Shown: piece by piece, positions 26,168-40,902 of the stretch
Numbering within the stretch: the stretch's first letter is position 1
Layout: each line of letters begins with the position of its first letter
Source: an uncultured Lachnospiraceae bacterium
Lineage (GTDB): Bacteria > Bacillota > Clostridia > Lachnospirales > Lachnospiraceae
Assembly (NCBI GenBank): GCA_947053345.1
Contig: CAMRSM010000001.1
Location: forward strand, 165,888-229,887
Direction: 5' to 3'
DNA length: 64,000 bases
Translations under genes and position numbers: made by a program
Notes under the pieces: generated by a model
What the model saw: the letters and a program-made list of their open reading frames with translations, nothing else
What the model was told of the DNA's origin: nothing
Database searches by the model: none

Positions 26168-28747
26168 ATGAGTAGTTTTTATGCTTTGACCTCCCCGGAG
26201 GTCACGGAATTGGAAAAGAAGAACCAGGAGATTGTGCGCCGGCTTGCGGGCGAGTGCATGGTGCTGTTAAAGAATGACGGTGCGCTCCCTCTTAGCGGGA
26301 CGGGCAAGATTGCGATGTACGGCGACGGGGTGCGCCATACGGTAAAGGGCGGCACCGGTTCGGGCGACGTGAACACGAGGGAAGTCATCACGGTCGATCA
26401 GGGGATGCTTGACGCGGGATTTACCATTACGTCAAAGGCATGGCTTGACGCTTATGACGCGCATTTTGAGAAGGCAAAGAACGATTATCTGGATGATATC
26501 TCGAAAAAGGCGAATGGAAACCATTCCCATATGATTGGGCTGATGTTTGAATTCCCGTTCTTCCCGCCGGATATGCCGGAAATCACGGAAGCGGATGTGG
26601 CGGAGGCGGACACGGATACTGCGGTGTTTGTGATCACGCGCAATTCCGGCGAAGGGAAGGATCGCAAAAACCGCAAGGGGGATTATGAACTTACGGACGG
26701 CGAGGAGCGCGCAATCCGCTTTTTGGCAGAACATTACAAAAAATGTATTGTCCTGTTAAATGTCGGCGGCGTGATGGACATGTCCGTGATTGACGGGATT
26801 CCTGGCGTAAATGCGGTGCTTTTAGTCGGCCAGACCGGGAATATCGGCGGTTTTGTTGTGGCGGATGTCCTGACGGGCAAAAGCATCCCTTCGGGGAAAC
26901 TGACGGATACCTGGGCGAAGAAGTATTCCGATTATCCGTCCTCCGGGGAATTCGGGCATATTGGCGGGAATTTGGATGACGAATACTATAAAGAGGGGAT
27001 TTATGTCGGCTACCGTTATTTTGACAGCTTTGGCGTGGAACCGGCATACTGCTTTGGCTACGGGCTTGGCTATACGGTATTTTCAATGCAGGCACAGTCG
27101 GTCACGGTAGAGGATGGCAAGGTGAAGGTGTGCGTGACAGTGAAAAATACCGGGAGCAAAAATGCGGGCAGGGAAGTTGTGCAGGTATATGTGACGATGC
27201 TTGGCGGGATGATTGAGAAGCCGTTCCAGGAGCTTGTTGGTTTTGCGAAAACAAAGCTGCTCTCCTGCGGCGAGGAAGAAACGGTTACGGTCACCTTCCC
27301 GCTTGCGGACATGGCATCCTACGATGTGGCGGATGCGGCATGGAAGCTTGAAGCGGGTCAGTATAAGATCAATGTCGGCAGCAGTTCGCGCAACACCAGT
27401 ACCGCCGCTGTCCTAAAGCTTGGTGAGACGGTGGTGACCGCGAAGTTAAAAAATCTTTTTGCGCTGAATACGCCGATGGAGGAACTTTCTGCCGCTGCGG
27501 GCGGATGGGATTCTATGTATCATCTCCCGGTGCAGCAGGACTGTGTTCAGGTCGGGGTGCAGGAAACGCAGATAATTGAGCTGGATGCTTCGCAGATCGC
27601 AGGAAAGACTGTCGTCTATGACCAGGAGCGCCCGGTTTATACGGATACCCGCGCCACAGAGAAGCTCACGCTTTCCGATGTGAGGGAAGGAAAGGCAGAG
27701 CTTTGTGAGCTTGTCGCGCAGCTTAGCGTGCAGGAGATGGCAGAACTTTGTGTCGGCCGTTTCGGCGACATCCACACGCATTCCGGCATGATCGGCTCGG
27801 CTTCCGCGGCAGTGCCGGGCGCGGCGGCGGATACGGTATCGACGCTGATTAAGGAGCGCGGTATCCCGAATATGATCCTTGCGGACGGACCTGCCGGGCT
27901 GCGGCTCTATCCGCATTTTAAGGCGACCCCGGACGGAAAGCTTTTGCGCGGCGGCGAGGTGTTTGGCATGGATCAGGCACCGTTCCCGGAGGATACGCCG
28001 TCTGATGCGGTGGATTATTATCAGTACTGTACGGCGATCCCGATTGCAAATACCCTGGCACAGTCCTTTGATATGGAATTATTCCGGCAGATGGGGCGCG
28101 CCGTCGGGGAGGAAATGAAGCAGTTCCATGTGCATTTCTGGCTTGCGCCGGGCATGAATATCCACAGGAACCCACTTTGTGGGAGAAATTTTGAGTATTA
28201 TTCCGAAGACCCGCTGCTCTCCGGGAAATGCGCGGCGGCAATGACGCAAGGTGTGCAGTCCTTTGCGGGTCAGGGCACGACGATCAAGCATTACGCGGGC
28301 AACAATCTGGAGGATAACCGCCAGTTTAACAATTCGCATATCAGCGAGCGGGCGCTGCGCGAGATTTACTTAAAGGGTTTTGAGATCGCGGTGAAGGAAT
28401 CGCAGCCTTACTCGATTATGACATCCTATAACCTGTTAAACGGCGTGCACGCCGCGAACCATTATGAGTTGATCCAGAATGTGGCGCGCGACGAGTGGGG
28501 CTTTGAGGGTGTGGTGATGACGGACTGGTTTACCACGCAGGATACTTCGGGCGGACAGAAAAAGGCCTATCCGCATTCCAGCGCCGTTAAGTGCATCCGG
28601 GTCGGCAATGACCTGATTATGCCGGGCTGCGAGCAGAATGTGAAGGATATTGTTGCGGCGGTGGAAAAGGGCGGGGAGATTACGCTGGCGGATCTCCAGT
28701 TTTGTGTGATGAACATCTTAAAAATTGCCCTGCACATCGAAGGATAA
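26168..28747 (+). CDS. Glycoside hydrolase family 3 (permuted domain order)
   Basis: GTGSGDV, GKLTDTWAK, then C-terminal catalytic half ILADGPAGLRL...KHYAGNNLEDNR...GVVMTDWF. Confidence 0.92.
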   Translation: MSSFYALTSPEVTELEKKNQEIVRRLAGECMVLLKNDGALPLSGTGKIAMYGDGVRHTVKGGTGSGDVNTREVITVDQGMLDAGFTITSKAWLDAYDAHFEKAKNDYLDDISKKANGNHSHMIGLMFEFPFFPPDMPEITEADVAEADTDTAVFVITRNSGEGKDRKNRKGDYELTDGEERAIRFLAEHYKKCIVLLNVGGVMDMSVIDGIPGVNAVLLVGQTGNIGGFVVADVLTGKSIPSGKLTDTWAKKYSDYPSSGEFGHIGGNLDDEYYKEGIYVGYRYFDSFGVEPAYCFGYGLGYTVFSMQAQSVTVEDGKVKVCVTVKNTGSKNAGREVVQVYVTMLGGMIEKPFQELVGFAKTKLLSCGEEETVTVTFPLADMASYDVADAAWKLEAGQYKINVGSSSRNTSTAAVLKLGETVVTAKLKNLFALNTPMEELSAAAGGWDSMYHLPVQQDCVQVGVQETQIIELDASQIAGKTVVYDQERPVYTDTRATEKLTLSDVREGKAELCELVAQLSVQEMAELCVGRFGDIHTHSGMIGSASAAVPGAAADTVSTLIKERGIPNMILADGPAGLRLYPHFKATPDGKLLRGGEVFGMDQAPFPEDTPSDAVDYYQYCTAIPIANTLAQSFDMELFRQMGRAVGEEMKQFHVHFWLAPGMNIHRNPLCGRNFEYYSEDPLLSGKCAAAMTQGVQSFAGQGTTIKHYAGNNLEDNRQFNNSHISERALREIYLKGFEIAVKESQPYSIMTSYNLLNGVHAANHYELIQNVARDEWGFEGVVMTDWFTTQDTSGGQKKAYPHSSAVKCIRVGNDLIMPGCEQNVKDIVAAVEKGGEITLADLQFCVMNILKIALHIEG

Positions 28748-28763
28748 AAAGACAGGGGAAGAC

Positions 28764-28806
28764 GCAGTGCGGGAAACGATTGAAACACGTTTCCCGCACT
28801 GCATTT
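28764..28806 (+). terminator. Rho-independent terminator
   Basis: gcagtgcgggaaacg (28764-28778) / cgtttcccgcactgc (28788-28802), 15-bp perfect, then atttt. Confidence 0.8.
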
Positions 28807-28821
28807 TATGGAGGTTTGACG

Positions 28822-29124
28822 ATGGTGTTTGACAACCATGATGCCAGAATACGGTATTATAAGCTTTTGTTACAGAGGGATACGCTTTGCGATATCCCGG
28901 AATATAAGCTTCCGAAAGGTTACCGGTTCGTATATTATCAGGACGGTGACTTGGAGGACTGGATTGCCATCGAGCAGTCGGCAAAAGAGTTTGACAGCAG
29001 GGAGGAAGGGTATAGCGCGTGGGGGCGCTTTTACTTGGGGCGTGAAGAGGAGCTTTCTTCCCGGATGGTTTTTATCGAGGATATGGCGGGGAAGGCTGCT
29101 ACGTGTTTACCCCGAGTGACTTGA
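28822..29124 (+). pseudogene. 3'-truncated GNAT-like acetyltransferase at the left edge of the accessory island
   Basis: GYRFVYYQDGDLEDWIAIEQSAKEFDSREEGYSAWGRFYL...MVFIEDMAGKAAT, then out-of-family CLPRVT and stop. Confidence 0.65.
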
Positions 29125-29285
29125 TGGGGTACATGGGGCATGAGGGCATACTGTATAAAGCAGAAGAGGTATATGCGGAACTTCTGAATAGGGTAAGCCT
29201 GAGTTATTGTGAGGATGAGGATAGAAGTGACTATTACTCAGTCCTTGAGCTTTATATGGACTTGGGCGATATATTGGAGGCTTAG
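29103..29285 (+). CDS. Small hypothetical protein (mobile-element type)
   Basis: 60-aa ORF, GTG start, acidic C-terminus; start overlaps the GNAT remnant. Confidence 0.35.
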   Translation: MFTPSDLMGYMGHEGILYKAEEVYAELLNRVSLSYCEDEDRSDYYSVLELYMDLGDILEA

Positions 29286-29434
29286 TCTTGTTTTTGGGGG
29301 GAAGGCTTGTATGGCTGTCACACTGTTTATAGAGAGGCATTCTATAACACGGGGTGTGGCAGCCAGTGAGTGATCAAAGAAGGTAGAGTATGGATAGTGA
29401 ATTTATTAATAATATGCAGGAAGGAGTGTATGAT

Positions 29435-29668
29435 ATGAGAGGATACAAGGAACTTATGGGGAGATTTAGGGTTGCAACATCAGCCACCACTTGGGATCCT
29501 GTGCAGCGACAGTCTGTGCCGATAGATCCTGATGCATATGATGTGATACTGAATAAGGTCTGTAATGGGTATGCTTGCGAGATATATGAGGTTAAGAAGA
29601 ATGCGCCAGGACTTAGTGATTATGAACTTGCGCTTATATGTGATGAAGGGAATTTGTGTTTTGGGTAA
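29435..29668 (+). CDS. Small hypothetical protein sharing a motif with the N-terminus of the 31619-32425 ORF
   Basis: CEIYEVKKNAPGLSDYELALICDEGN compared with [26 protein letters not shown]. Confidence 0.5.
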   Translation: MRGYKELMGRFRVATSATTWDPVQRQSVPIDPDAYDVILNKVCNGYACEIYEVKKNAPGLSDYELALICDEGNLCFG

Positions 29669-29836
29669 GAGAACCGGGGCGGTAAGATTGTTGTCTATAT
29701 AGACTGAGTAATGTAGCAGTGAATGAACTTGCGTTGCATAAGGAGTTATGGTAGGATATGGGTGGGAGAATTACGTGTTGGTCAGAGTTCTGTCAGGTTA
29801 TTAAGTGGAATGGTAGTTATTACTTGGAGGTGTGTT

Positions 29837-30283
29837 GTGGCAATTAATGTGTATATTGGTAAAGAGAATCTTCCGAAAGAAAAAGTACTGGTATTTGATG
29901 TAGAGGCAGCAATTTTAGCAGTAAGGGTGATTGGGAGTGCATTCCAGAGAAAAGTATTGGCAGAGCTTGAACAAGGGGAATATAAGGATGGAAGGGTCTT
30001 TATTGATCGGTTTGGTAACCATTTATATTATACAGAGATGAGTGCTGGTTCAAAAGCCTTATTTGAATTGGAGGGATTACCTGACAAAGTGGTCAATGGT
30101 GCAGAAATGGGCTTTAATGCCCTGCGCTTTGTTGCAGAGATACCAGAATGCAGTATTTATTTTGCCCAGAGGGATGAGGCACTTCCTTTCCATGGCACAA
30201 AAACGGAGTTATATTTGAATGGGAAGCTTTATAAAGATTGCAGTCTGTTAAACCAGAAAATAGAAAGTGGGGGGCTTGAGTGA
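29837..30283 (+). CDS. Uncharacterised cassette protein 1 (VDVEAA...DRFG...EMSAGSKALFELEGLPDKVVNGAEMGFNAL)
   Basis: GTG start after cttggaggtg; overlaps the next gene by 4 nt. Confidence 0.6.
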   Translation: MAINVYIGKENLPKEKVLVFDVEAAILAVRVIGSAFQRKVLAELEQGEYKDGRVFIDRFGNHLYYTEMSAGSKALFELEGLPDKVVNGAEMGFNALRFVAEIPECSIYFAQRDEALPFHGTKTELYLNGKLYKDCSLLNQKIESGGLE

Positions 30284-30684
30284 AGATCGTAGTTGGCAGT
30301 ATGGTTATTAGCATAGAGTTGCCTTTTGGAATTCATGCAACAGAAGATGATTCTGCAATGGGAAAGACTTACTTGGCAAAGTTATTGCAGGCGGGCATGA
30401 TGGCAGGGGATGCAAATTATTTGGTGATTACTTATTTTGAGGGCATTACAACTGATTTTGTAATAAAACGCTTGAGGGAGAGAACTTATTTATTTATTAT
30501 GATGGATCGACTTGATTTGTATTTAAGTGATGGCATTGCAGATGCTTTGGTCGATATTCGCGAAAACACATGTATTTTTGTCGATTTGAAAAATTGGAAT
30601 CTGACCAAAGTATTCTGTCCAAATTTGGTTGATTTTGAGTTTACGGAAAGGGGAATCCGGCTGTATGAGGGTGATGATATTTGA
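30280..30684 (+). CDS. Uncharacterised cassette protein 2, small P-loop-like ATPase
   Basis: Degenerate Walker A EDDSAMGKTYLAKLL and Walker B-like YLFIMMDRLDLY. GTG start. Confidence 0.6.
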   Translation: MKIVVGSMVISIELPFGIHATEDDSAMGKTYLAKLLQAGMMAGDANYLVITYFEGITTDFVIKRLRERTYLFIMMDRLDLYLSDGIADALVDIRENTCIFVDLKNWNLTKVFCPNLVDFEFTERGIRLYEGDDI

Positions 30685-31381
30685 GGATGCAGAAAATGCA
30701 CCTATTAGTCAGATGATTGCAAGCGCTTACAAGAATCAGTCAGAGGTTATGTTGTACTTTACAGGTGGAAATTCTGTTCTTCGGGACAAGTTATGTGAGA
30801 TATATGATGCTGGGAACCAGTACATAGTTTATATTGATTTGGTTCCGGACAATTACACAACAATCAAGGAATATCGTATACTTAGAAAGATTATACGGAG
30901 AAGGAATTTTAAAAATGTTTATGTACTACCAATCATTTGTATAGAGTACTATGTAATGAAGACTTTTTTCCTAGAAACGCCAGCTATTGAGGTGGCAATA
31001 AAATGCGGAGATTATAGAGAATATGGGTCGCAGACTTCATTAGAGAGATACTGTAAGTTTGTGTTGAATACAGTGTATCCAGTATGTATGCATACAGATG
31101 ATGATCCAAATGTTAGATTTGGATGGTTTTATGTACAGGATTGTTTGTGCGTTGCACCAATGAAAGAATGCAATGGATTTAGTTTATTAGCTAAAGCAAA
31201 AGAACTAGTTAAAAAGTTGCCTGCATTTTACAGACCAAGCAGTTGGGCAGATAGTGAAACAAGGAGTGTGGATTTAGGGATTATACACAATAAACTGGTT
31301 GAAGAGTTTAAGAGGATAACAGATAGATATAATGTTTTAGGGCTGATTGATGCGGCTATAAAAGATTATAGAATTGAGTGA
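30665..31381 (+). CDS. Uncharacterised cassette protein 3, possibly TOPRIM/DUF4435-like
   Basis: MIFEDAENAPIS...YIVYIDLVPDN...VYVLPIICIEYYVMK. ATG overlaps the end of the previous gene. Confidence 0.6.
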   Translation: MRVMIFEDAENAPISQMIASAYKNQSEVMLYFTGGNSVLRDKLCEIYDAGNQYIVYIDLVPDNYTTIKEYRILRKIIRRRNFKNVYVLPIICIEYYVMKTFFLETPAIEVAIKCGDYREYGSQTSLERYCKFVLNTVYPVCMHTDDDPNVRFGWFYVQDCLCVAPMKECNGFSLLAKAKELVKKLPAFYRPSSWADSETRSVDLGIIHNKLVEEFKRITDRYNVLGLIDAAIKDYRIE

Positions 31382-31458
31382 CATTGAGTTTAACAAGCAA
31401 TGAATGAGTAATATAATGTAATTGATAGAGTAAGCGAACGAGAGTAATATTGTTTATT

Positions 31459-31489
31459 AAAGTCCTAGTATTTGTACAGGGACTTTTTT
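31459..31489 (+). terminator. Rho-independent terminator of the three-gene cassette
   Basis: aaagtcct...agggactttttt. Confidence 0.7.
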
Positions 31490-31618
31490 CTTATGTGATG
31501 TTTTTGGGAAGTGTAGGGTATAACGAAAAGAGAAAAGATTGCAGTTGATATAGATGATATTTTAAATATGCTTCCGTCGGAACTGTTAAGGTAGGGTATT
31601 TAAAAAGACTCCTGTTTT

Positions 31619-32425
31619 TTGATGGTGTCCGGGATTATCGTATGTAGTGAGGGGTGGTTAGCAAGTTCACGGGAAGATGTATGCAAGATATACAGGGTCG
31701 TGAAAAATGTGCCTGGACTGGATGAGAAGAGCCTTGCGCTCCTTTGCTATGAAAGTAATGGAGGGTTTTATCCATACACGCGGGTACGTTGCAATAATGC
31801 TGGGTGCTGCCGACTGGACAGTTATTGGGTATGCCGTGAGGTTGTGTGTTCAGACAAACTGCCAGGAAACCCTCCTACCATGGAGGAAGTCGAGGCATTA
31901 CGTGCGGAGTACCCAGCGGGAACGCGAGTTGCATATGGTGCGGGTATGGTGCGTGCTGTTGAACCAACAGAAGGGAAAAGAAGACAGAGAGTGAAGAAAA
32001 TAAAAATTCAGTATTTGGACGATTCTATCGAGCGCCTGCGCTATATTGACGGGAAATCGGACTGGATTGACCTGCGGGCAGAGGAGGAAGTTGCGATGAA
32101 GGCGGGAGAATTTGCGCTGATTCCGCTCGGTGTGGCGATGCAGCTCCCAGAGGGCTACGAGGCGCATATCGTTCCACGGAGCAGCACGTTCAAAAATTTT
32201 GGCATCATTCAGACGAACCATACCGGGATCGTGGACAATTCCTACTGCGGTCCGAACGATTGGTGGTACATGGCAGCATACGCGCTGCGCGGTACAGTAA
32301 TCCACAAAAATGACCGTATCTGTCAGTTTAGGATCGTTGAAAATCAGCCTTTACTATCTTTTGAAGAGGTGGACAGGTTGGCTGGGGTGAACCGGGGTGG
32401 GATTGGAAGCACTGGAACACGGTAG
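31619..32425 (+). CDS. Chimeric ORF: mobile-element fragments fused to a complete-looking dUTPase
   Basis: C-terminal dUTPase: [26 protein letters not shown]...[36 protein letters not shown]...[10 protein letters not shown]-like tail. N-terminal [13 protein letters not shown] and [14 protein letters not shown] segments. Confidence 0.7.
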
Positions 32426-32521
32426 TTAGTGTGGCAGTAAGTGCTTGGCAGGAGGCTACCCGATCTTTAGATAAAGCAGGTGATGCATTAGGGTTGGATA
32501 CTTTGAGAAGGGAGGGTAGAT

Positions 32522-32737
32522 ATGCTGCCAGAGAAGTTTACATTATACTGGCTTGTGGCGGTGTTCCGTAAACGGAGGAATACGAGGAAGAGGAGAAAAC
32601 GGGAAGAGGATAAGCAGCCTTGCGGTACAGCACGGAATATTGAGGCACATCCGGCGTACGTAAAGGCTTTAGCAGAGCGGGATGTATATGAGAAGTTGTA
32701 CAAAGACTTGTTGAGGGAGGTTCGGGTTAATTTGTAA
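32522..32737 (+). CDS. Small basic hypothetical protein
   Basis: 71-aa ORF RKRRNTRKRRKREEDKQ...AHPAYVKALAERDVYEKLYKDLL. Confidence 0.4.
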   Translation: MLPEKFTLYWLVAVFRKRRNTRKRRKREEDKQPCGTARNIEAHPAYVKALAERDVYEKLYKDLLREVRVNL

Positions 32738-33099
32738 GCATGGTACACATGGTAAAGTCTTGGGTAAGCCGATGAGTTAGGTTTACTCAAGATTTTGCTT
32801 ATAACGGTCTGGGTATGATAAAGAGAGAATTGGAGGTTCGAGATGAATAACATTAAGAAAATATTTTGGTATAGGGAATCACGAATATGGATAAAATCTT
32901 AGCAGTTACCAATTTTGGTGATACATGATGCCTATGTGGTATTTATAGTATTTTATTATAAAGTTATTGTGCGGTTTACGTTACACATGAACTATAATGC
33001 AAAAAGCATAGAGGTAAATTTTACGACACATTATGGGTAAATAAAATTTCCTGCATAGAATAAAAGGTATGTAGAAAAAAGTCTGGAGGAGGTGTTATA

Positions 33100-35160
33100 A
33101 TGCAGTGGGAGGGGTTTGATATGAATAATCCGAATACGCTAGTCGCACTTGCATACATAAAGACGAATGATAATCCGTTACTGGTTTTTTGCAATTATAT
33201 AATGAGTGTATTAGTCACTGCACCAGGCCGGTCCTTACGGAATGATGAGCTTTTGGATAAGCTAAAAGGAAAATTTGGGCTGGAAATGAAGCAGTCAATG
33301 ATCAATAACTGTATCTCCATCCTGAAGAAGAATGGGGAAGTCAAGTATTTACCAAGGTATGCAGGCTATGTGGTGGGCGAAACAGAATTTAATGTGGAAG
33401 AGTTTGAAGCGAATATGCGGAGGCTGCATGTACAGGAGGATGCAGTTATCGGATGTTTGGTGCAGTTCGTAAGGGAGAAGTACAACTTGTCGTGGGATAA
33501 TGATAAGGCAAAGAACGGCTTGTCTTTTTTCCTGAATGAACGTGGGAATGCCGCAAGGCTCTTTATGGATGAGGAAATTGATACAGAGGATAACAAGCTG
33601 AGCGAGTCATGGTATATTGGGAGATTTATTGATTATATCCAAGGGAGCGACCGGGTTGAAAAAGAGTATCTGGAAGATATCAATAATGGCTTGATGATAT
33701 ATCAGGGCATTTATCAGACGAACGATTACCAGCAGGATAAGAACCAAAAGTTTAGGGGGACGGTATTTTATTTTGATACTAAGATGATTCTGCGTCTTGT
33801 GGGTTATTCTGTTGAAATGCATGTGAGGGCAACGCAAGAACTTGCACAGCTGGTGAAAGATGAGTATGGTGGGAAGATTGGTATTTTTGACAAGACAGTG
33901 GAAGAGGTTGCACATGCCTTATATGTTGCAGGAAAATGTTATAAGGGGAAGAAACAGATTTTAAATCGGGAGCTTGCCATTTATGCAGAGAAAAATCCGA
34001 CAGGAGCCTCTTTTTTCTGTGAGGTCTCCCAAAGTATTGATAGTTTGCTGAAAAAGCATGGGATTGTACGTGAACCGGATATATCTTGGGAAGCGCAGGC
34101 ATACCATAAATATTGGCTGGAAACAGAGGCTGTCGAAAATTACATCAAGGACAAATTTCATTGGAGGGAAGGTGCGGTATCAAATGATGTCCAAGTGATT
34201 AACCAGATTAATATACTGAGGGCGGGGGATTATACCGTCCGATATGGTGGACGAAAGAAACTGCCGGTTTTTGTTACAACGAACACGCAGTTGGTATATA
34301 GCTTTAAGGAATATGTTGCAGAAGCCATGAGTGCCGACGATGAGTCTCGTTGGAATTTGCATGCCTTGCCTATAATTTCGGAAAATATGCTTGTTACCCG
34401 GTTATGGGTCCCATATGCGAAAAAGTATAGTGACCTGCCCGCGCTTACCTTGGCAAGGCAGGCTTATGCGGCGCAGAATCCGACAGCCGGCTTTTTTGAA
34501 AAGTTAAAAAGTGTAGCAGTTGAGTTTAAGAAGACGGAAAATATTGATATCCTTAACATTGATGAACTTAGAAAACAACAGCTTGAGGATATTCTGGTAG
34601 CGAAGACACGGGGTGATGTGGACGCGTTGACTATAGAGACGGTTGCATCGAGTGTTGAGGAACTTGTACAGATGCAGAACATTTCGTTGAAGGAGGAGGT
34701 TGCGGCAAGTCAGGAAACAATAAGATTAAAGGATGTCCGGTTGTCAGAAGCGGAGGAGGCTGTCATACGTCTGGCAGCTAAGCCATACGTAAATAGGTTG
34801 GGCTGGAGACGGATGCTGATATGGGCGGCAGAATATTGGTGGGTTCTAGCAACCTTGATTTTTCAGGTTGCGGCTTATTTTATTGGCAAGCCATTGGATA
34901 GCAAGTGGCCGCCACATTTGCTCGCTTTGCTTCCGGTGGTTGCGGAAGCTGCTTTGACAGTACTGGATAAGCATTTTGAAAAGAAGGAGTGGCATGAGTG
35001 TATTTTGCGCTGCGCTGTTAAGTATGTATGGCAATGGTACATGGCAAAAATAATGGAGGGCGTGCGGCAGGAGAAGGAGGTTTATCGTCCCCATGTCGTC
35101 CGTTATTGCCTTGAGGGTACACCGATATTTGCGGAACATAGGGAGTGGTGTGAATATTAA
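33100..35160 (+). CDS. Uncharacterised 686-aa protein: N-terminal HTH-like region, PIN-like nuclease domain, C-terminal two-TM region
   Basis: VFYFDTKMILRLVGYSVEM, IFDKTVEEVAHAL, PVFVTTNTQLVYSFKEY (PIN-like pattern); LIWAAEYWWVLATLIFQVAAYFIG and HLLALLPVVAEAALTVL hydrophobic segments. Strong RBS ggaggagg. Confidence 0.7.
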   Translation: MQWEGFDMNNPNTLVALAYIKTNDNPLLVFCNYIMSVLVTAPGRSLRNDELLDKLKGKFGLEMKQSMINNCISILKKNGEVKYLPRYAGYVVGETEFNVEEFEANMRRLHVQEDAVIGCLVQFVREKYNLSWDNDKAKNGLSFFLNERGNAARLFMDEEIDTEDNKLSESWYIGRFIDYIQGSDRVEKEYLEDINNGLMIYQGIYQTNDYQQDKNQKFRGTVFYFDTKMILRLVGYSVEMHVRATQELAQLVKDEYGGKIGIFDKTVEEVAHALYVAGKCYKGKKQILNRELAIYAEKNPTGASFFCEVSQSIDSLLKKHGIVREPDISWEAQAYHKYWLETEAVENYIKDKFHWREGAVSNDVQVINQINILRAGDYTVRYGGRKKLPVFVTTNTQLVYSFKEYVAEAMSADDESRWNLHALPIISENMLVTRLWVPYAKKYSDLPALTLARQAYAAQNPTAGFFEKLKSVAVEFKKTENIDILNIDELRKQQLEDILVAKTRGDVDALTIETVASSVEELVQMQNISLKEEVAASQETIRLKDVRLSEAEEAVIRLAAKPYVNRLGWRRMLIWAAEYWWVLATLIFQVAAYFIGKPLDSKWPPHLLALLPVVAEAALTVLDKHFEKKEWHECILRCAVKYVWQWYMAKIMEGVRQEKEVYRPHVVRYCLEGTPIFAEHREWCEY

Positions 35161-35525
35161 AACATGGATGTGAAACTAAAAACTGTGATGGTAGATAGTG
35201 AGGATGTAAGAGACACACTTGAGGAAAGCCTCCAGGCAGATGGTATTGAAGTAAGGGTTCGGCAGTGAAATATAATTGTGTGCACATACACATATTAAAT
35301 ATGTAATATGGTTATAATTTCTTGCCGAGTGGTGTAGTATGGCCAGAGTTTAAGTGAACCCGTACAATAAGCTGTAAAGGAAAGTTTTGACAGATATTTT
35401 AGGAAGGTGACAATAGAGTTTTGATAAATATATGGTTTAGAGGACATGGCTTATTGTTAGGCTATTGGAGATTCTGGCTAGATGACTGTGGGTTAGATGT
35501 CTGACAAGTTGATACTTAAAAGGGG

Positions 35526-35561
35526 AAAAGCTTCCATATCTGTAAGATATGGAGGCTTTTT
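35526..35561 (+). terminator. Rho-independent terminator
   Basis: aaaagcttccatatc tgtaa gatatggaggcttttt. Confidence 0.8.
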
Positions 35562-35655
35562 GGTATGATAAAATTATTGTAGGAGGGCGAAGAACAGTGT
35601 ATGGCAGATTTATTCCGAAGATGGACGGTAAATCTGGTTATGTAGGAGGCTAAAA

Positions 35656-35885
35656 TTGTGGACATACTTGAAATATAAGTTGGAAGAACAGGGCAAAAAG
35701 CTTGTAAAAGTGGATAAATTTTTGCGAGCAGTCAGATTTGCAGTGCCTGCGGCTACAAAAACACAACGATTAAAAATCTTGCTGTTAGAGCGTGGGATTG
35801 TCCTGAATGTGGCACTCATCACGATAGAGATGTAAATGCCGCAATAAATATCAGAAATGAGGGTATGCGAATAGTTCTTGCATAA
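35656..35885 (+). pseudogene. tnpB: 3' remnant of IS200/IS605-family tnpB (zinc ribbon and last RuvC motif), frameshifted
   Basis: [21 protein letters not shown] / frameshift / [52 protein letters not shown]. Confidence 0.9.
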
Positions 35886-35897
35886 CTCACAACATAA

Positions 35898-35914
35898 CCC
35901 CGTGTCCCACGGGG
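35898..35914 (+). mobile_element. IS605-type right-end hairpin CCCCGTGTCCCACGGGG
   Basis: Hairpin 12 bp after the tnpB stop, immediately followed by unrelated response-regulator sequence. Confidence 0.6.
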
Positions 35915-35926
35915 TTAGCTCGCTTT

Positions 35927-36433
35927 ATGCTCCCTGCAATAACAGGACTTGGTGTGTTACATGAAATCCGCAAAAAAAGCTCTGTTCCTGTTCTTATGCT
36001 CACAGCTATTAAAGACGAATATACGCAAGTTACAAGTTTTGATGAACAAGCGGATGACTATGTTACAAAACCGTTTTCTATGGTATTGCTTGGCAGACGC
36101 ATCACGGCACTTTTACGCAGAAACGGAAGCACCGATGTTCTTAATACAATGACCTTTGGTGATGTGACAGTAGATTTTTCTGGCTATACGGCCAAAGACC
36201 CGAATGGTAAAATTGATATTACCCCAAAAGAAATTGATTTGTTGAGATTGTTAGTAGAGCATAAAGGGTTAGTGCTTACCCGCACCCAAATTCTTGATGA
36301 TTTATGGGGGAGTGATGCCCCGATTATCGACAGAACAGTGGATGTCTACATAAGAAATTTGCGAAAAAAATTACGGCTTGACTGTATTGTTACTGTCAAA
36401 GGAATTGGATATAAATACGAGGTAGACGAATGA
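35927..36433 (+). pseudogene. 5'-truncated OmpR-family response regulator (receiver lacks first part and phosphoacceptor Asp)
   Basis: Begins abruptly at MLPAITGLGVLHEIRK (normally ...DLMLP), then intact KPFSM and winged helix to stop. Confidence 0.8.
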
Positions 36434-37548
36434 AACGGCTAAAACTATTTCCAAAAATCTTTATATATACGCTTTTTCTTATGTTGATGATAGCTTTATT
36501 CGCAAGTGGAATGTTTTATCTTCTTGCTCCTATTATTGCAAGTGATAATCCCTTAACCCCCGGTACGGCTGGAAATATTTTTCCGGCAGAAGTAACGCGT
36601 AATGCGGAAGTAACGCAAGCCATTCTTGGCTCATTACCATACACAATGGGTATGTGTGTGCTTATTTCTTTAATATCCGCTTTCTTTTTTTCAAAAGCAA
36701 TTACAAAACCGATTAAGCATATTGTAGATACTACATTTTCCATGACTATTCTGAAAAAAGACGCTAAATGCAGGGTGCAATCAGCAGATGAAATAGGTCT
36801 ATTATCGGAAAGTATTAACAGATTATATTCAAAGTTACTACAAACTATCGAAAATCTTGAACATGAAAAAGAACAGGTGGCCGAAGTAGAACGGCAAAAA
36901 ATAGATTTTCTGAGAATGGCAACACATGAATTAAAAACGCCTGTTACTGCGCTTAATGCTATTCTTGATAATATGGTTATGGGGATTGGAAAATATAAAG
37001 ACTACAATGCTTATTTACCCCTATGCAAAGAGCGGAGTGAACAAATTGCTAAAATGATTACAGAAATTTTGGATACATCAAAATTGGGGACAAGCATAGA
37101 CACTGAACCGTCAACGACTTTTGATGCTACTGCGCTTTTACTGCCTTTATGTGAACAGTATCAACTGATAGCACAGGCAAATGGTATGATTTTCAAAATG
37201 ACCCTATTAAATCAGTTCCCCGTATGCTTGCCTCCGAAGATCATCTCGAAAGCTATTTCGAATATTTTGGCAAATGCTGTTGCTTACACGATTCCCGGAG
37301 GAACAATATCTGTTTATTTTGATAACCGTAACTTGGTTATTGAAAATGAGTGTTTACCTATACCATCAGAGCACCTAAAGAAAATATTTGAGCCCTTTTA
37401 TCGTCCAGATTATGCCCGAAATAAAAAGGACGGCGGAAATGGTCTTGGCTTATATATCGTAGCATCTATTTTGAATTATCTTGATTTGCCATATTCCTTT
37501 TACCCTATGAAAGAGCCAGGGGGTATGCGATTTACAATATCGCTATGA
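36430..37548 (+). CDS. Sensor histidine kinase
   Basis: HAMP-like region, FLRMATHELKTPVTALNAILDNM, GGNGLGLYIVASILNYLDLPY. ATGA overlap with the RR stop. Confidence 0.92.
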   Translation: MKRLKLFPKIFIYTLFLMLMIALFASGMFYLLAPIIASDNPLTPGTAGNIFPAEVTRNAEVTQAILGSLPYTMGMCVLISLISAFFFSKAITKPIKHIVDTTFSMTILKKDAKCRVQSADEIGLLSESINRLYSKLLQTIENLEHEKEQVAEVERQKIDFLRMATHELKTPVTALNAILDNMVMGIGKYKDYNAYLPLCKERSEQIAKMITEILDTSKLGTSIDTEPSTTFDATALLLPLCEQYQLIAQANGMIFKMTLLNQFPVCLPPKIISKAISNILANAVAYTIPGGTISVYFDNRNLVIENECLPIPSEHLKKIFEPFYRPDYARNKKDGGNGLGLYIVASILNYLDLPYSFYPMKEPGGMRFTISL

Positions 37549-37660
37549 CTATCGACAAAAATTTTCACTTTAACATACGTTTTATACAGGTTTCATATAG
37601 GGGTGCTATCATGTCGATACACTCAAAAGATGAGTGAAATCAAAAAACGGAGGTAATACT

Positions 37661-38101
37661 ATGAAACACAAACCTATCCTTTTGGGGACGGCACTTGCCG
37701 TCATCATGCTTTTGTCCATTAGCGGGTTAGCTTTTGCGGCAAATGCAACCAACACTTCACCAAATTCTGCAAACGGTGATGTGGAAGTACGAACCGACTT
37801 GGCACCGGGAGGCAAGACGGCTAACCAGCCCGAATTTTGGCAAGCCGATGAATTTGAAAGCTGGATGGAGCAAGAACGCGCATACTATCAGCAACTCGCA
37901 GACGACGGAGACAAATCCTTTTGGTACAAAAACGCAGATGAGGAATATGTTTGCCGCGAATGGACACAAGCCGATGTTGATGTTCTGTATGCAACATGGA
38001 AAGAACAGCTTGCTTTGATGCGGCAAGGCTATCAATTCACAAAGGTTTTTGAGGCGGCAGACGGCGGCTCGCTTGTAGGAGGATTTCTGCCGGAAGAATA
38101 A
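37661..38101 (+). CDS. Small secreted protein of unknown function
   Basis: Signal peptide MKHKPILLGTALAVIMLLSISGLAFAAN. Confidence 0.7.
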   Translation: MKHKPILLGTALAVIMLLSISGLAFAANATNTSPNSANGDVEVRTDLAPGGKTANQPEFWQADEFESWMEQERAYYQQLADDGDKSFWYKNADEEYVCREWTQADVDVLYATWKEQLALMRQGYQFTKVFEAADGGSLVGGFLPEE

Positions 38102-38114
38102 CACAACAAACGCT

Positions 38115-38152
38115 TTGGGGCAGTTCTCTTTTAGGGGGACTGCCCCAATTTC
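38115..38152 (+). terminator. Hairpin/terminator
   Basis: ttggggcagt / actgccccaa followed by tttcat. Confidence 0.55.
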
Positions 38153-38407
38153 ATATGAATGAGTTTTAATAGGAACACTGTAATATCAAGGCTTTTCAGA
38201 GCCTGCACCCACAAAAAAATTTAATCGGAGCTATCGAAAGAAGCCGAGAAAATCCGAAAGAGCGTTTACAGTATCTTGCGGCAGGAACAGCGGGAATACG
38301 CGCCTTACAGGACACAAGATATGGATCGATAACGGACGGGGCGGCGGGATAATGAAAGACTGCCCCGCCACCCATGTTTTATTGCCCTACAAACTGAAAG
38401 TTGTTGA

Positions 38408-38790
38408 TTAGTCCCACACGATTTCCAAACAATTGTAGTTTTCTGGAATTGGTGGTACACACGAATAAGTATTTAATTCAGATGCCTCTATTGTAATCAC
38501 TCCGTCAGAGCAAAGCCATTCGCAATTTACTAATTTTTCTAATTCTGTAGGTAAAATGGTGGTGCAAACCACGATTGTATCTCCTGCAAGAGCTAATTCT
38601 TCTGCCCCCATTGTTTTCTATGATTTCTGTATCATCGTGCAGAGTAACACGCACCCACGCTATGTCAGGCATTAACTCAATCTTTTGCAGCGTATCCCAT
38701 ATTTCAGAAAGCGTCGGTCGCCCAAATTCCCATTGGTTCGGAGCAATAGAATCTCATAGCCACAATTCTCCTCAAATTCCGATTAGTCTG
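38408..38790 (-). pseudogene. Frameshifted uncharacterised gene (approximate 5' limit)
   Basis: Frame 1 QWEFGRPTLSEIWDTLQKIELMPDIAWVRVTLHDDTEIIENNGG continues as GAEELALAGDTIVVCTTILPTELEKLVNCEWL in the neighbouring frame. Confidence 0.6.
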
Positions 38791-38982
38791 TCTGTATTGG
38801 TAGAAATTATACCATAGCCAATTACGAAAAACAATCCCCGTTCTACGCCCGTTCTTTCTGCCCGTTTCCTGCCGAGCTGAAAAGTTTTGCGTCAGTAACT
38901 CAAAAAAGCACTTGACAAAACGCTTCATGGGGGACAGAAAAGGACATCAAGCCGTTCACCGACCCCAAGTTTGAAAGCTTCT

Positions 38983-39076
38983 AAGCCGTAAAGAGGAAAG
39001 TGGTGGGAAAGGGGGACTTCTTTGTGTCAGGTGGGGGATAAGCCCCGTCTGACATGCTGTGGTAGCAGCATAGGGA
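38983..39076 (+). ncRNA. Candidate structured RNA element, copy B
   Basis: GTAAAGAGGAAAG..ACTTCTTTGTGTCAGGTGGGGGATAAGCCCCGTCTGACATGCTGTGGTAGCAGCATAGGGAT; similar in sequence and fold to 25427-25519. Confidence 0.4.
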
Positions 39077-39276
39077 TCGCGGAACGGATTCCGAATTTCC
39101 TCTGCCCCGGACAAAAGCCTGAATGGCAAGAAATGCTAACCGATTGATAGAAAATATCAAGCGGCTTATGATAGAATAAAAGGGGGAGGAAGATACCGGG
39201 TGGTGGTGGAATCTTCCCTTTTATGGTTTAAAGATCAAACGGGGTGTTTACCCCGGTATTTGGAAAGGGGAATCGT

Positions 39277-40902
39277 ATGAAGTATATTAAAGTGTATACA
39301 AAGCAGGCAGCAGGAGCAGAATACCCGAATTCATTTGCAAACAGCGTTCATTTTGCGCTCTGTGACGAGGACGGGAAAGTCGAGGAACTGAATCAGGGCT
39401 GTGGTATCCTATATGCCTGCGCCAAAATCAGGGAGGACGATACACTTTTGGAGCGAGGTGTAAAAAATCCGGTGTTGTTTGAGAAGGATGGGCAGTACGG
39501 GATTCTGGCAGAATATGTCGATGCACAGGGAAATCCGCAGAAACCGGATACCCTGCTTTTGTGGAACACGGAGGATTTTGTTGATTTTTCAGAGCAGAGG
39601 GAGGTTTCCCGCGCGGAATATTCTGCTTATTTTGAGTCTGGAAATAGAATGCTTCCTGTTACGGACGAGCAAAGTGAAAAAATCCGTGCGCGTTTTATTC
39701 CGCTTTGCAGTGTGAGCGCCGAATATCCGAAAAAGATTTCGGTAAGGAATGTGGAGGAACTCTCTGCGGTAAGTGCCAGGGTGACCTACTCGGATGGCTC
39801 CATGGATGAAAAGAGAATTTACTGGGACGAGCAGGAAATCCATGCTTTAAATTCTGGAAGTACCAGTATCCTGCACGGGGAAATCCGGGCGGTATCACCA
39901 AAATTCCCGCAGGCGGTAGGCTATGCTGACCCGGTAATTTTTCATTGGGAGGGCGCTTGGTATTTCCTTGCAACAAATGACAATGTCAATGATATCGGGA
40001 TATTTGTCCGCAGGGCGGATACCGTAGAGGGACTGTTTGCGCCGGATATGAAAGAATACTGCATTTTAGCTCAGGATAAGGAAAAGGGGCTGGTACAAAC
40101 TTTCTGGGCACCGGAATTCCATGTGATCGGCGGCGCGCTCTACATTTTGTTTGCAGTTAGCGGGGAGGCGTGGGGACCACAGTGCCATTTTATGAAGCTG
40201 AGGGAAGGCGGAGAGATCATCCGTGCCATGGACTGGGAAGAGCCTGTGCGTGTGGTAAGACAGGACGGCAGCCCGCTTACACAGGATGGGATCACGCTCG
40301 ATATGACATGGGTGCGCTCCGGCGGCCAGGGTTATCTTGTGTGGTCATACCGCCGGGGCATCGGTACGCCTTTGGACACGGGTTCCATGCTCTATATTGC
40401 GGCAGCACACGAGGAGAAGCCATGGGTGCTCACTTCCGAGCCGGTACTGCTTTCCAGACCGCTGTTTGGCTGGGAAAACACAAAGGGCACGATCAATAAT
40501 GAGGGGCCGTATGCCCTGTATGCAAACGGCAGGATTTATCTTGCCTATTCCGGAGGGGATGCCTGCGGCTATTCCTATGCGGTGGGCTATCTGGTCGCGG
40601 AGGATGGGGCAGATCTTTTAAAGCCGGATTCCTTTAAAAAGCTTCCGTACCCGATGCTTCGCTCTACATTTGTAGAAGGAATCAACGGACCGGGGCACAA
40701 TTCCTTCTTTCAGGATGAGGACGGGCGGTGGATGGTTGCCTACCATGCGCAGGAGCGGGGGAAATACAACTGCCGCTGTAGTACATACCACAGGGTACAT
40801 TTTTCTGCGGACGGCATTCCGATGCTTCATGTTTCCGGGGAACGGGATGTATCAAAGGAGATTGCAAAAATTGCGGTCGAAGTGAAAGTTTGTGAAAAAT
40901 AA
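39277..40902 (+). CDS. Glycoside hydrolase family 43-like protein
   Basis: VGYADPVIFHWEGAWYFLATNDN, FWAPEFHVIGGALYILFAVSG, NEGPYALYANGRIYLAYSGG, GHNSFFQDEDGRWMVAYH. Confidence 0.85.
   Translation: MKYIKVYTKQAAGAEYPNSFANSVHFALCDEDGKVEELNQGCGILYACAKIREDDTLLERGVKNPVLFEKDGQYGILAEYVDAQGNPQKPDTLLLWNTEDFVDFSEQREVSRAEYSAYFESGNRMLPVTDEQSEKIRARFIPLCSVSAEYPKKISVRNVEELSAVSARVTYSDGSMDEKRIYWDEQEIHALNSGSTSILHGEIRAVSPKFPQAVGYADPVIFHWEGAWYFLATNDNVNDIGIFVRRADTVEGLFAPDMKEYCILAQDKEKGLVQTFWAPEFHVIGGALYILFAVSGEAWGPQCHFMKLREGGEIIRAMDWEEPVRVVRQDGSPLTQDGITLDMTWVRSGGQGYLVWSYRRGIGTPLDTGSMLYIAAAHEEKPWVLTSEPVLLSRPLFGWENTKGTINNEGPYALYANGRIYLAYSGGDACGYSYAVGYLVAEDGADLLKPDSFKKLPYPMLRSTFVEGINGPGHNSFFQDEDGRWMVAYHAQERGKYNCRCSTYHRVHFSADGIPMLHVSGERDVSKEIAKIAVEVKVCEK

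Follow-up and report, generated by a model that had tools for sequence, protein, structure and literature searches.

The window analysed here is a 64-kb stretch of DNA (bases 165888-229887 of contig 1) from a 4.13-Mb genome, and the gene of interest lies in an accessory island between a GH3 and a GH43 gene. The island, the gene and its predicted parts are positioned as follows:

28747..39250, no strand: accessory island holding the gene, between the GH3 and GH43 genes (congener comparison, GC content)
33100..35160, + strand: whole gene, 686 aa (ORF, family alignment, ribosome-binding site)
33136..33378, + strand: N-terminal winged-helix domain, ~residues 13-93 (AF2 model and Foldseek)
33742..34419, + strand: PIN-like nuclease domain, ~residues 215-440 (invariant residues, hhalign, AF2 topology, match to 2fe1)
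33775..33777, + strand: D226, predicted first catalytic acid, at the end of beta 1 (D in 25/26 members)
33904..33906, + strand: E269, predicted second catalytic acid (E in 25/26 members)
34186..34188, + strand: D363, predicted third catalytic acid (D in 23/26 members; S or G in one subclade)
34276..34284, + strand: T393-x-N395, fourth PIN motif, T-x-D/N (T393 in 25/26 members; at 395, N in 20, D in 4 and T in 2 of 26)
34813..34965, + strand: two hydrophobic C-terminal helices, residues 572-622, a predicted transmembrane hairpin (hydropathy, relatives)

The 686-aa reading frame on which the earlier note had commented is real: an ATG opens it in the ORF list (33100-35160, + strand), and a strong Shine-Dalgarno sequence, TGGAGGAGG, lies upstream of this ATG. 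The island that had been proposed around it is likewise borne out, as the distance between the same two flanking genes is ~10.5 kb here (28746 to 39277) versus 281 bp in a congener (L127 3616 to 3898), and the GC content is ~0.41 inside the island versus ~0.51 outside. No known defence gene was recognised in the island by PADLOC. Its other genes include three adjoining ORFs at 29723-31381, the first of which is weakly like DUF4869 and for which no function was found, and a 268-aa ORF at 31619-32425 with a C-terminal dUTPase-like domain (PF00692), whose best PHROG is a phage dUTPase family. At 35927-37548, a response regulator that lacks approximately its first 50 residues is followed by a VanS/PhoR-like histidine kinase; the PADLOC matches of this kinase were weak and partial and were taken as generic.

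For the 686-aa protein, the predicted domain order is a winged helix, a helical linker, a PIN nuclease domain, a coiled coil and a transmembrane hairpin. The window protein gave no significant match of its own in Pfam, NCBIfam, PADLOC, PHROGs or PDB sequences, and it was unmatched by the PADLOC 2.0 curated models, to which ten members of its family gave weak, scattered matches only. The PIN fold, on which the earlier note had made its reading depend beforehand, is nevertheless supported by profile comparison with controls, by predicted topology and by a Foldseek match. In hhalign, the PIN region matched a mixed set of PIN proteins from related genomes at 85.6% (P 5.6e-6), while controls (profiles that were reversed or came from elsewhere in the protein) reached 0.1-0.2%; results against three single PIN subgroups were mixed, with one at 79.5% and two at <1%. 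PIN_3 (PF13470) was matched by two members (best E 3.4e-4), the window protein's own PIN region being without a Pfam match. An AF2 model of modest quality (3-sequence alignment, mean pLDDT 56) places strands at 222-225, 259-262, 390-393 and 425-427 with helices between them, in an order that fits PIN. Foldseek with this model gave no match at E <0.001; among its matches was 2fe1, which we take to be the PIN/VapC-type protein PAE0151 (probability 0.99, TM 0.51 by target, E 0.054). Methyltransferase matches ranked above PAE0151 and were rejected (TM <=0.20, rmsd 13-17); they probably reflect a winged helix combined with a Rossmann-like shape in the model. A single-sequence AF2 model was discarded (pLDDT 39), and a search of a viral fold library gave no match with E <0.19. 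From profiles and model together, a PIN fold is very likely.

The three motifs quoted in the earlier note, said there to be spaced as in PIN-fold nucleases, each hold PIN residues in the expected order (VFYFD226, VEE269V and VTTN395), and a fourth, ND363VQVINQINILR, was absent from those quotes. Across 19 full-length members with a median pairwise identity of 19%, only D226, E269, D363, T393, N395, W436 and L451 are invariant, and five of these seven positions (D226, E269, D363, T393-x-N395) make up the PIN active site, so that the acids whose conservation had been put forward as a check are among the few residues retained in a very divergent family. The D, E and D of the PIN superfamily (PF13470, VapC-type, PAE0151) thus occur in order together with T-x-D/N. 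The canonical D is present at position 395 in four remoter members and N is invariant in the 19 closest; because D and N exchange there among members, position 395 is taken as the fourth PIN position occupied by N, and the substitution of canonical acids pointed out earlier, namely N395, is a family trait. The window family differs from the PIN superfamily in placing the domain in the middle of proteins of 650-750 aa, between a preceding winged helix and a following coiled coil and transmembrane hairpin, and in a long insertion between E269 and D363. In one subclade (L056, L059 and L060) D363 is lost, L056 also lacks D226, and other site residues are partly changed. Since D363 is lost, not all members are ordinary PIN nucleases, and judged by their residues those of this subclade may be inactive. 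L067 groups with these three in a sister subclade in which the third acid is replaced by S or G and the T-x-N motif is altered; this subclade is possibly a non-catalytic branch, and its members still adjoin defence genes or ride a mobile element.

At the N-terminus, the winged-helix-like region recognised in the earlier note is also predicted by AF2, with helices at 26-40, 48-59 and 65-77 and strands at 81-84 and 89-92, an element order of H-H-H-H-E-E and a pLDDT of ~67-88 over the block. Foldseek matched this domain to the IclR structure 5tjj with a probability of 1.00 but an E of 0.24. A winged helix is predicted with fair confidence. The claim of two C-terminal hydrophobic helices holds clearly for the relatives, 23/25 of which have two separate segments (the other two have one), and is marginal for the window protein itself, in which residues 572-598 and 604-622 have Kyte-Doolittle values of 1.45 and 1.60. 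A hairpin of this kind would leave both ends of the protein in the cytoplasm.

Sequence comparison places the protein in a divergent, unnamed family that spans Bacillota, Pseudomonadota, Actinomycetota and Bacteroidota. The nearest relative found, with 37% identity over the whole length, is from Robinsoniella peoriensis, a member of the Lachnospiraceae and thus of the same GTDB family, in which the gene sits among phage-type genes and not known defence genes; in the tree, the window protein groups with this member and G1116. The distribution is very patchy: members, some of them weak or fragmentary, were found in 5/397 genomes sampled at the family level, 10/392 at the order, 9/391 at the class and 11/399 at the phylum level (the samples share genomes, among them the window's own), and in 2/5426 E. 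coli genomes. Genome contigs scanned with a degenerate pattern yielded no member when the window protein was the query, and Robinsoniella only when a two-sequence alignment was used. Scans of viral contigs gave two members, and the annotated phage records searched gave none. Plasmid relatives were found by tblastn in Enterococcus faecium, Sporosarcina, Klebsiella, Pantoea and Arthrobacter, and one on a Hymenobacter plasmid by querying with other members. The homolog of one E. faecium plasmid (L011 5854-9286) is split by an insertion of IS16 (IS256-type). The fold and the kind of job proposed below are known; the architecture of winged helix, PIN, coiled coil and transmembrane hairpin was found neither named nor described in four family libraries and the open-access papers searched, and an earlier description may exist elsewhere in the literature.

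The genomic contexts of the relatives agree with the expectation that homologs lie in defence islands. The homolog of E. coli FDAARGOS_1337 is a lone gene in a P2-like prophage, flanked by the genes for tail-fibre assembly and the tail sheath and encoded on the other strand from these two; it thereby has the position and orientation of fun(Z) in P2. According to Vassallo et al. (PMC9519451), the fun locus is a second defence hotspot of P2 and holds three of their validated systems. The likeness is one of place and orientation: homology to P2 Fun(Z) itself was rejected (hhalign 0.1%), Fun(Z) being an unrelated protein with a P-loop-like motif. Gene D of a P2-like prophage, or of what is left of one, is the neighbour in the other E. 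coli member and in a contig from IMG/VR. The Sporosarcina member adjoins a CBASS-type operon, and the Hymenobacter member adjoins DNA methylase, helicase and CHAT genes. Neighbours that could be assigned to individual member loci were AbiLi, NsnA/PD-T4-2, IIG-type and type II methylases, type IV restriction, IetS and GajB, together with PDC-S46 in L055; neighbour tallies pooled over loci also contained type I R-M, AbiEi and GajA, and gene sizes suggest that the type I R-M belongs to L053. L067 lies on a mobilizable element with an integrase, a relaxase and a RepA-like ATPase, its ORFs having been identified by inspection. As controls, 86 ORFs from eight regions of genomes in the set were run through PADLOC, which gives a qualitative contrast with the member neighbours and not a statistical enrichment. 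Control ORFs also matched PADLOC, mostly PD-T4-6 and kinase-type models, and among the 25 of 40 families listed there was no restriction, Gabija, IetAS, AbiLi, AbiE or other Abi family. Members are thus found in defence islands, at prophage hotspots or on mobile elements, as is expected of an anti-phage gene.

Since plasmids, prophages and defence islands carry the family between bacteria, it probably acts as a single-gene anti-virus weapon. The explanation considered best, with a probability of roughly 55%, is that of a single-gene, horizontally mobile, membrane-tethered and auto-inhibited PIN RNase that would be released by infection and block the phage. With its C-terminal hairpin, the protein would be anchored at the cytoplasmic side of the cell membrane. 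It would fall to the winged helix and the helical linker to detect nucleic acid or a phage trigger and to keep the enzyme inactive. Once infection sets in, the PIN domain, a metal-dependent enzyme with the site D226/E269/D363/T-x-N395, would cleave RNA (tRNA or mRNA being the likeliest substrates) and so halt phage production, probably via growth arrest of the cell. A precedent by description is DS-3 of DefensePredictor, a stand-alone, one-gene PIN ribonuclease that defends against phage without an antitoxin and needs its catalytic residues to do so, and whose PIN domain, unlike that of the window family, reportedly consists of an N-terminal and a C-terminal part (PMC13092281). Counting against the proposed RNase are the window copy, which has no recognised defence neighbour, and the subclade L056, L059 and L060 with its lost acids.

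Abortive cleavage of RNA is favoured over the cutting of incoming DNA. The latter is the main rival, unlikely as it is: a membrane-bound exclusion nuclease like SNIPE, which would cut entering phage DNA at the inner membrane without killing the cell. The predicted combination of a membrane tether, a nuclease and a nucleic-acid-binding domain speaks for such a function, and carriage by prophages and plasmids would fit the exclusion of competitors; against it, RNA is the usual substrate of PIN proteins such as VapC. SNIPE itself, a phage-defence protein, demonstrates the principle, in that it joins a membrane-tethered nuclease to an extra recognition domain and its anchor prevents autoimmunity (PMC13190303). 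It differs from the window family in its GIY-YIG fold, its N-terminal instead of C-terminal anchor and its DUF4041, differences that also count against this rival, and a Pfam search of the window protein at E up to 10 matched neither GIY-YIG nor DUF4041.

Plasmid carriage also fits plasmid maintenance, and a second, rather improbable alternative is a maintenance toxin of the toxin-antitoxin type for plasmids or prophages, with its antitoxin nearby or built in and phage defence as a secondary effect. The VapC toxin fold is PIN and several members lie on plasmids with recombinases, but the E. coli P2-prophage gene, alone between phage structural genes, is too closely flanked for an ordinary antitoxin gene to fit in, the loci inspected share no annotated partner gene, and many chromosomal members adjoin defence genes. 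Membership of VapBC was rejected for this family, as the window protein has 686 aa and several domains, a member stands alone in a P2 prophage, and the inspected loci have no antitoxin gene in their annotation. Least probable is a host RNA-processing or regulatory enzyme that is mobile by chance and not a conflict gene. In its favour, housekeeping RNA metabolism also makes use of PIN and winged-helix domains, and the closest relative lies among phage-type genes, not known defence genes; the very patchy distribution, the extreme divergence and the defence and prophage contexts across several phyla argue against it.

A broader reading, at somewhat less than even odds, is a phylum-spanning, unnamed single-gene defence family whose winged helix would act as the sensor and govern a PIN nuclease tethered to the membrane. 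Here the membrane would both keep the enzyme harmless and let it meet the phage at entry or takeover, and the subclade without the site would represent a non-catalytic version. If true, this would add a widespread defence family that four family libraries have missed, and would make PIN the second nuclease class, besides GIY-YIG, to be tethered to the membrane. The natural members in E. coli P2 prophages allow immediate testing in laboratory strains with published phage panels.

Downstream of the gene and just ahead of the truncated response regulator, the island holds a C-terminal fragment of an IS200/IS605-type TnpB at 35741-35885 (CSACGYKN..., 18 further protein letters not shown), followed by the hairpin-like CCCCGTGTCCCACGGGG; the regulator was probably cut by the IS605-type element. 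Another congener (L128, G005:C20:1500-8000) has the GH43 gene directly next to the GH3 gene, in reversed order relative to the window.
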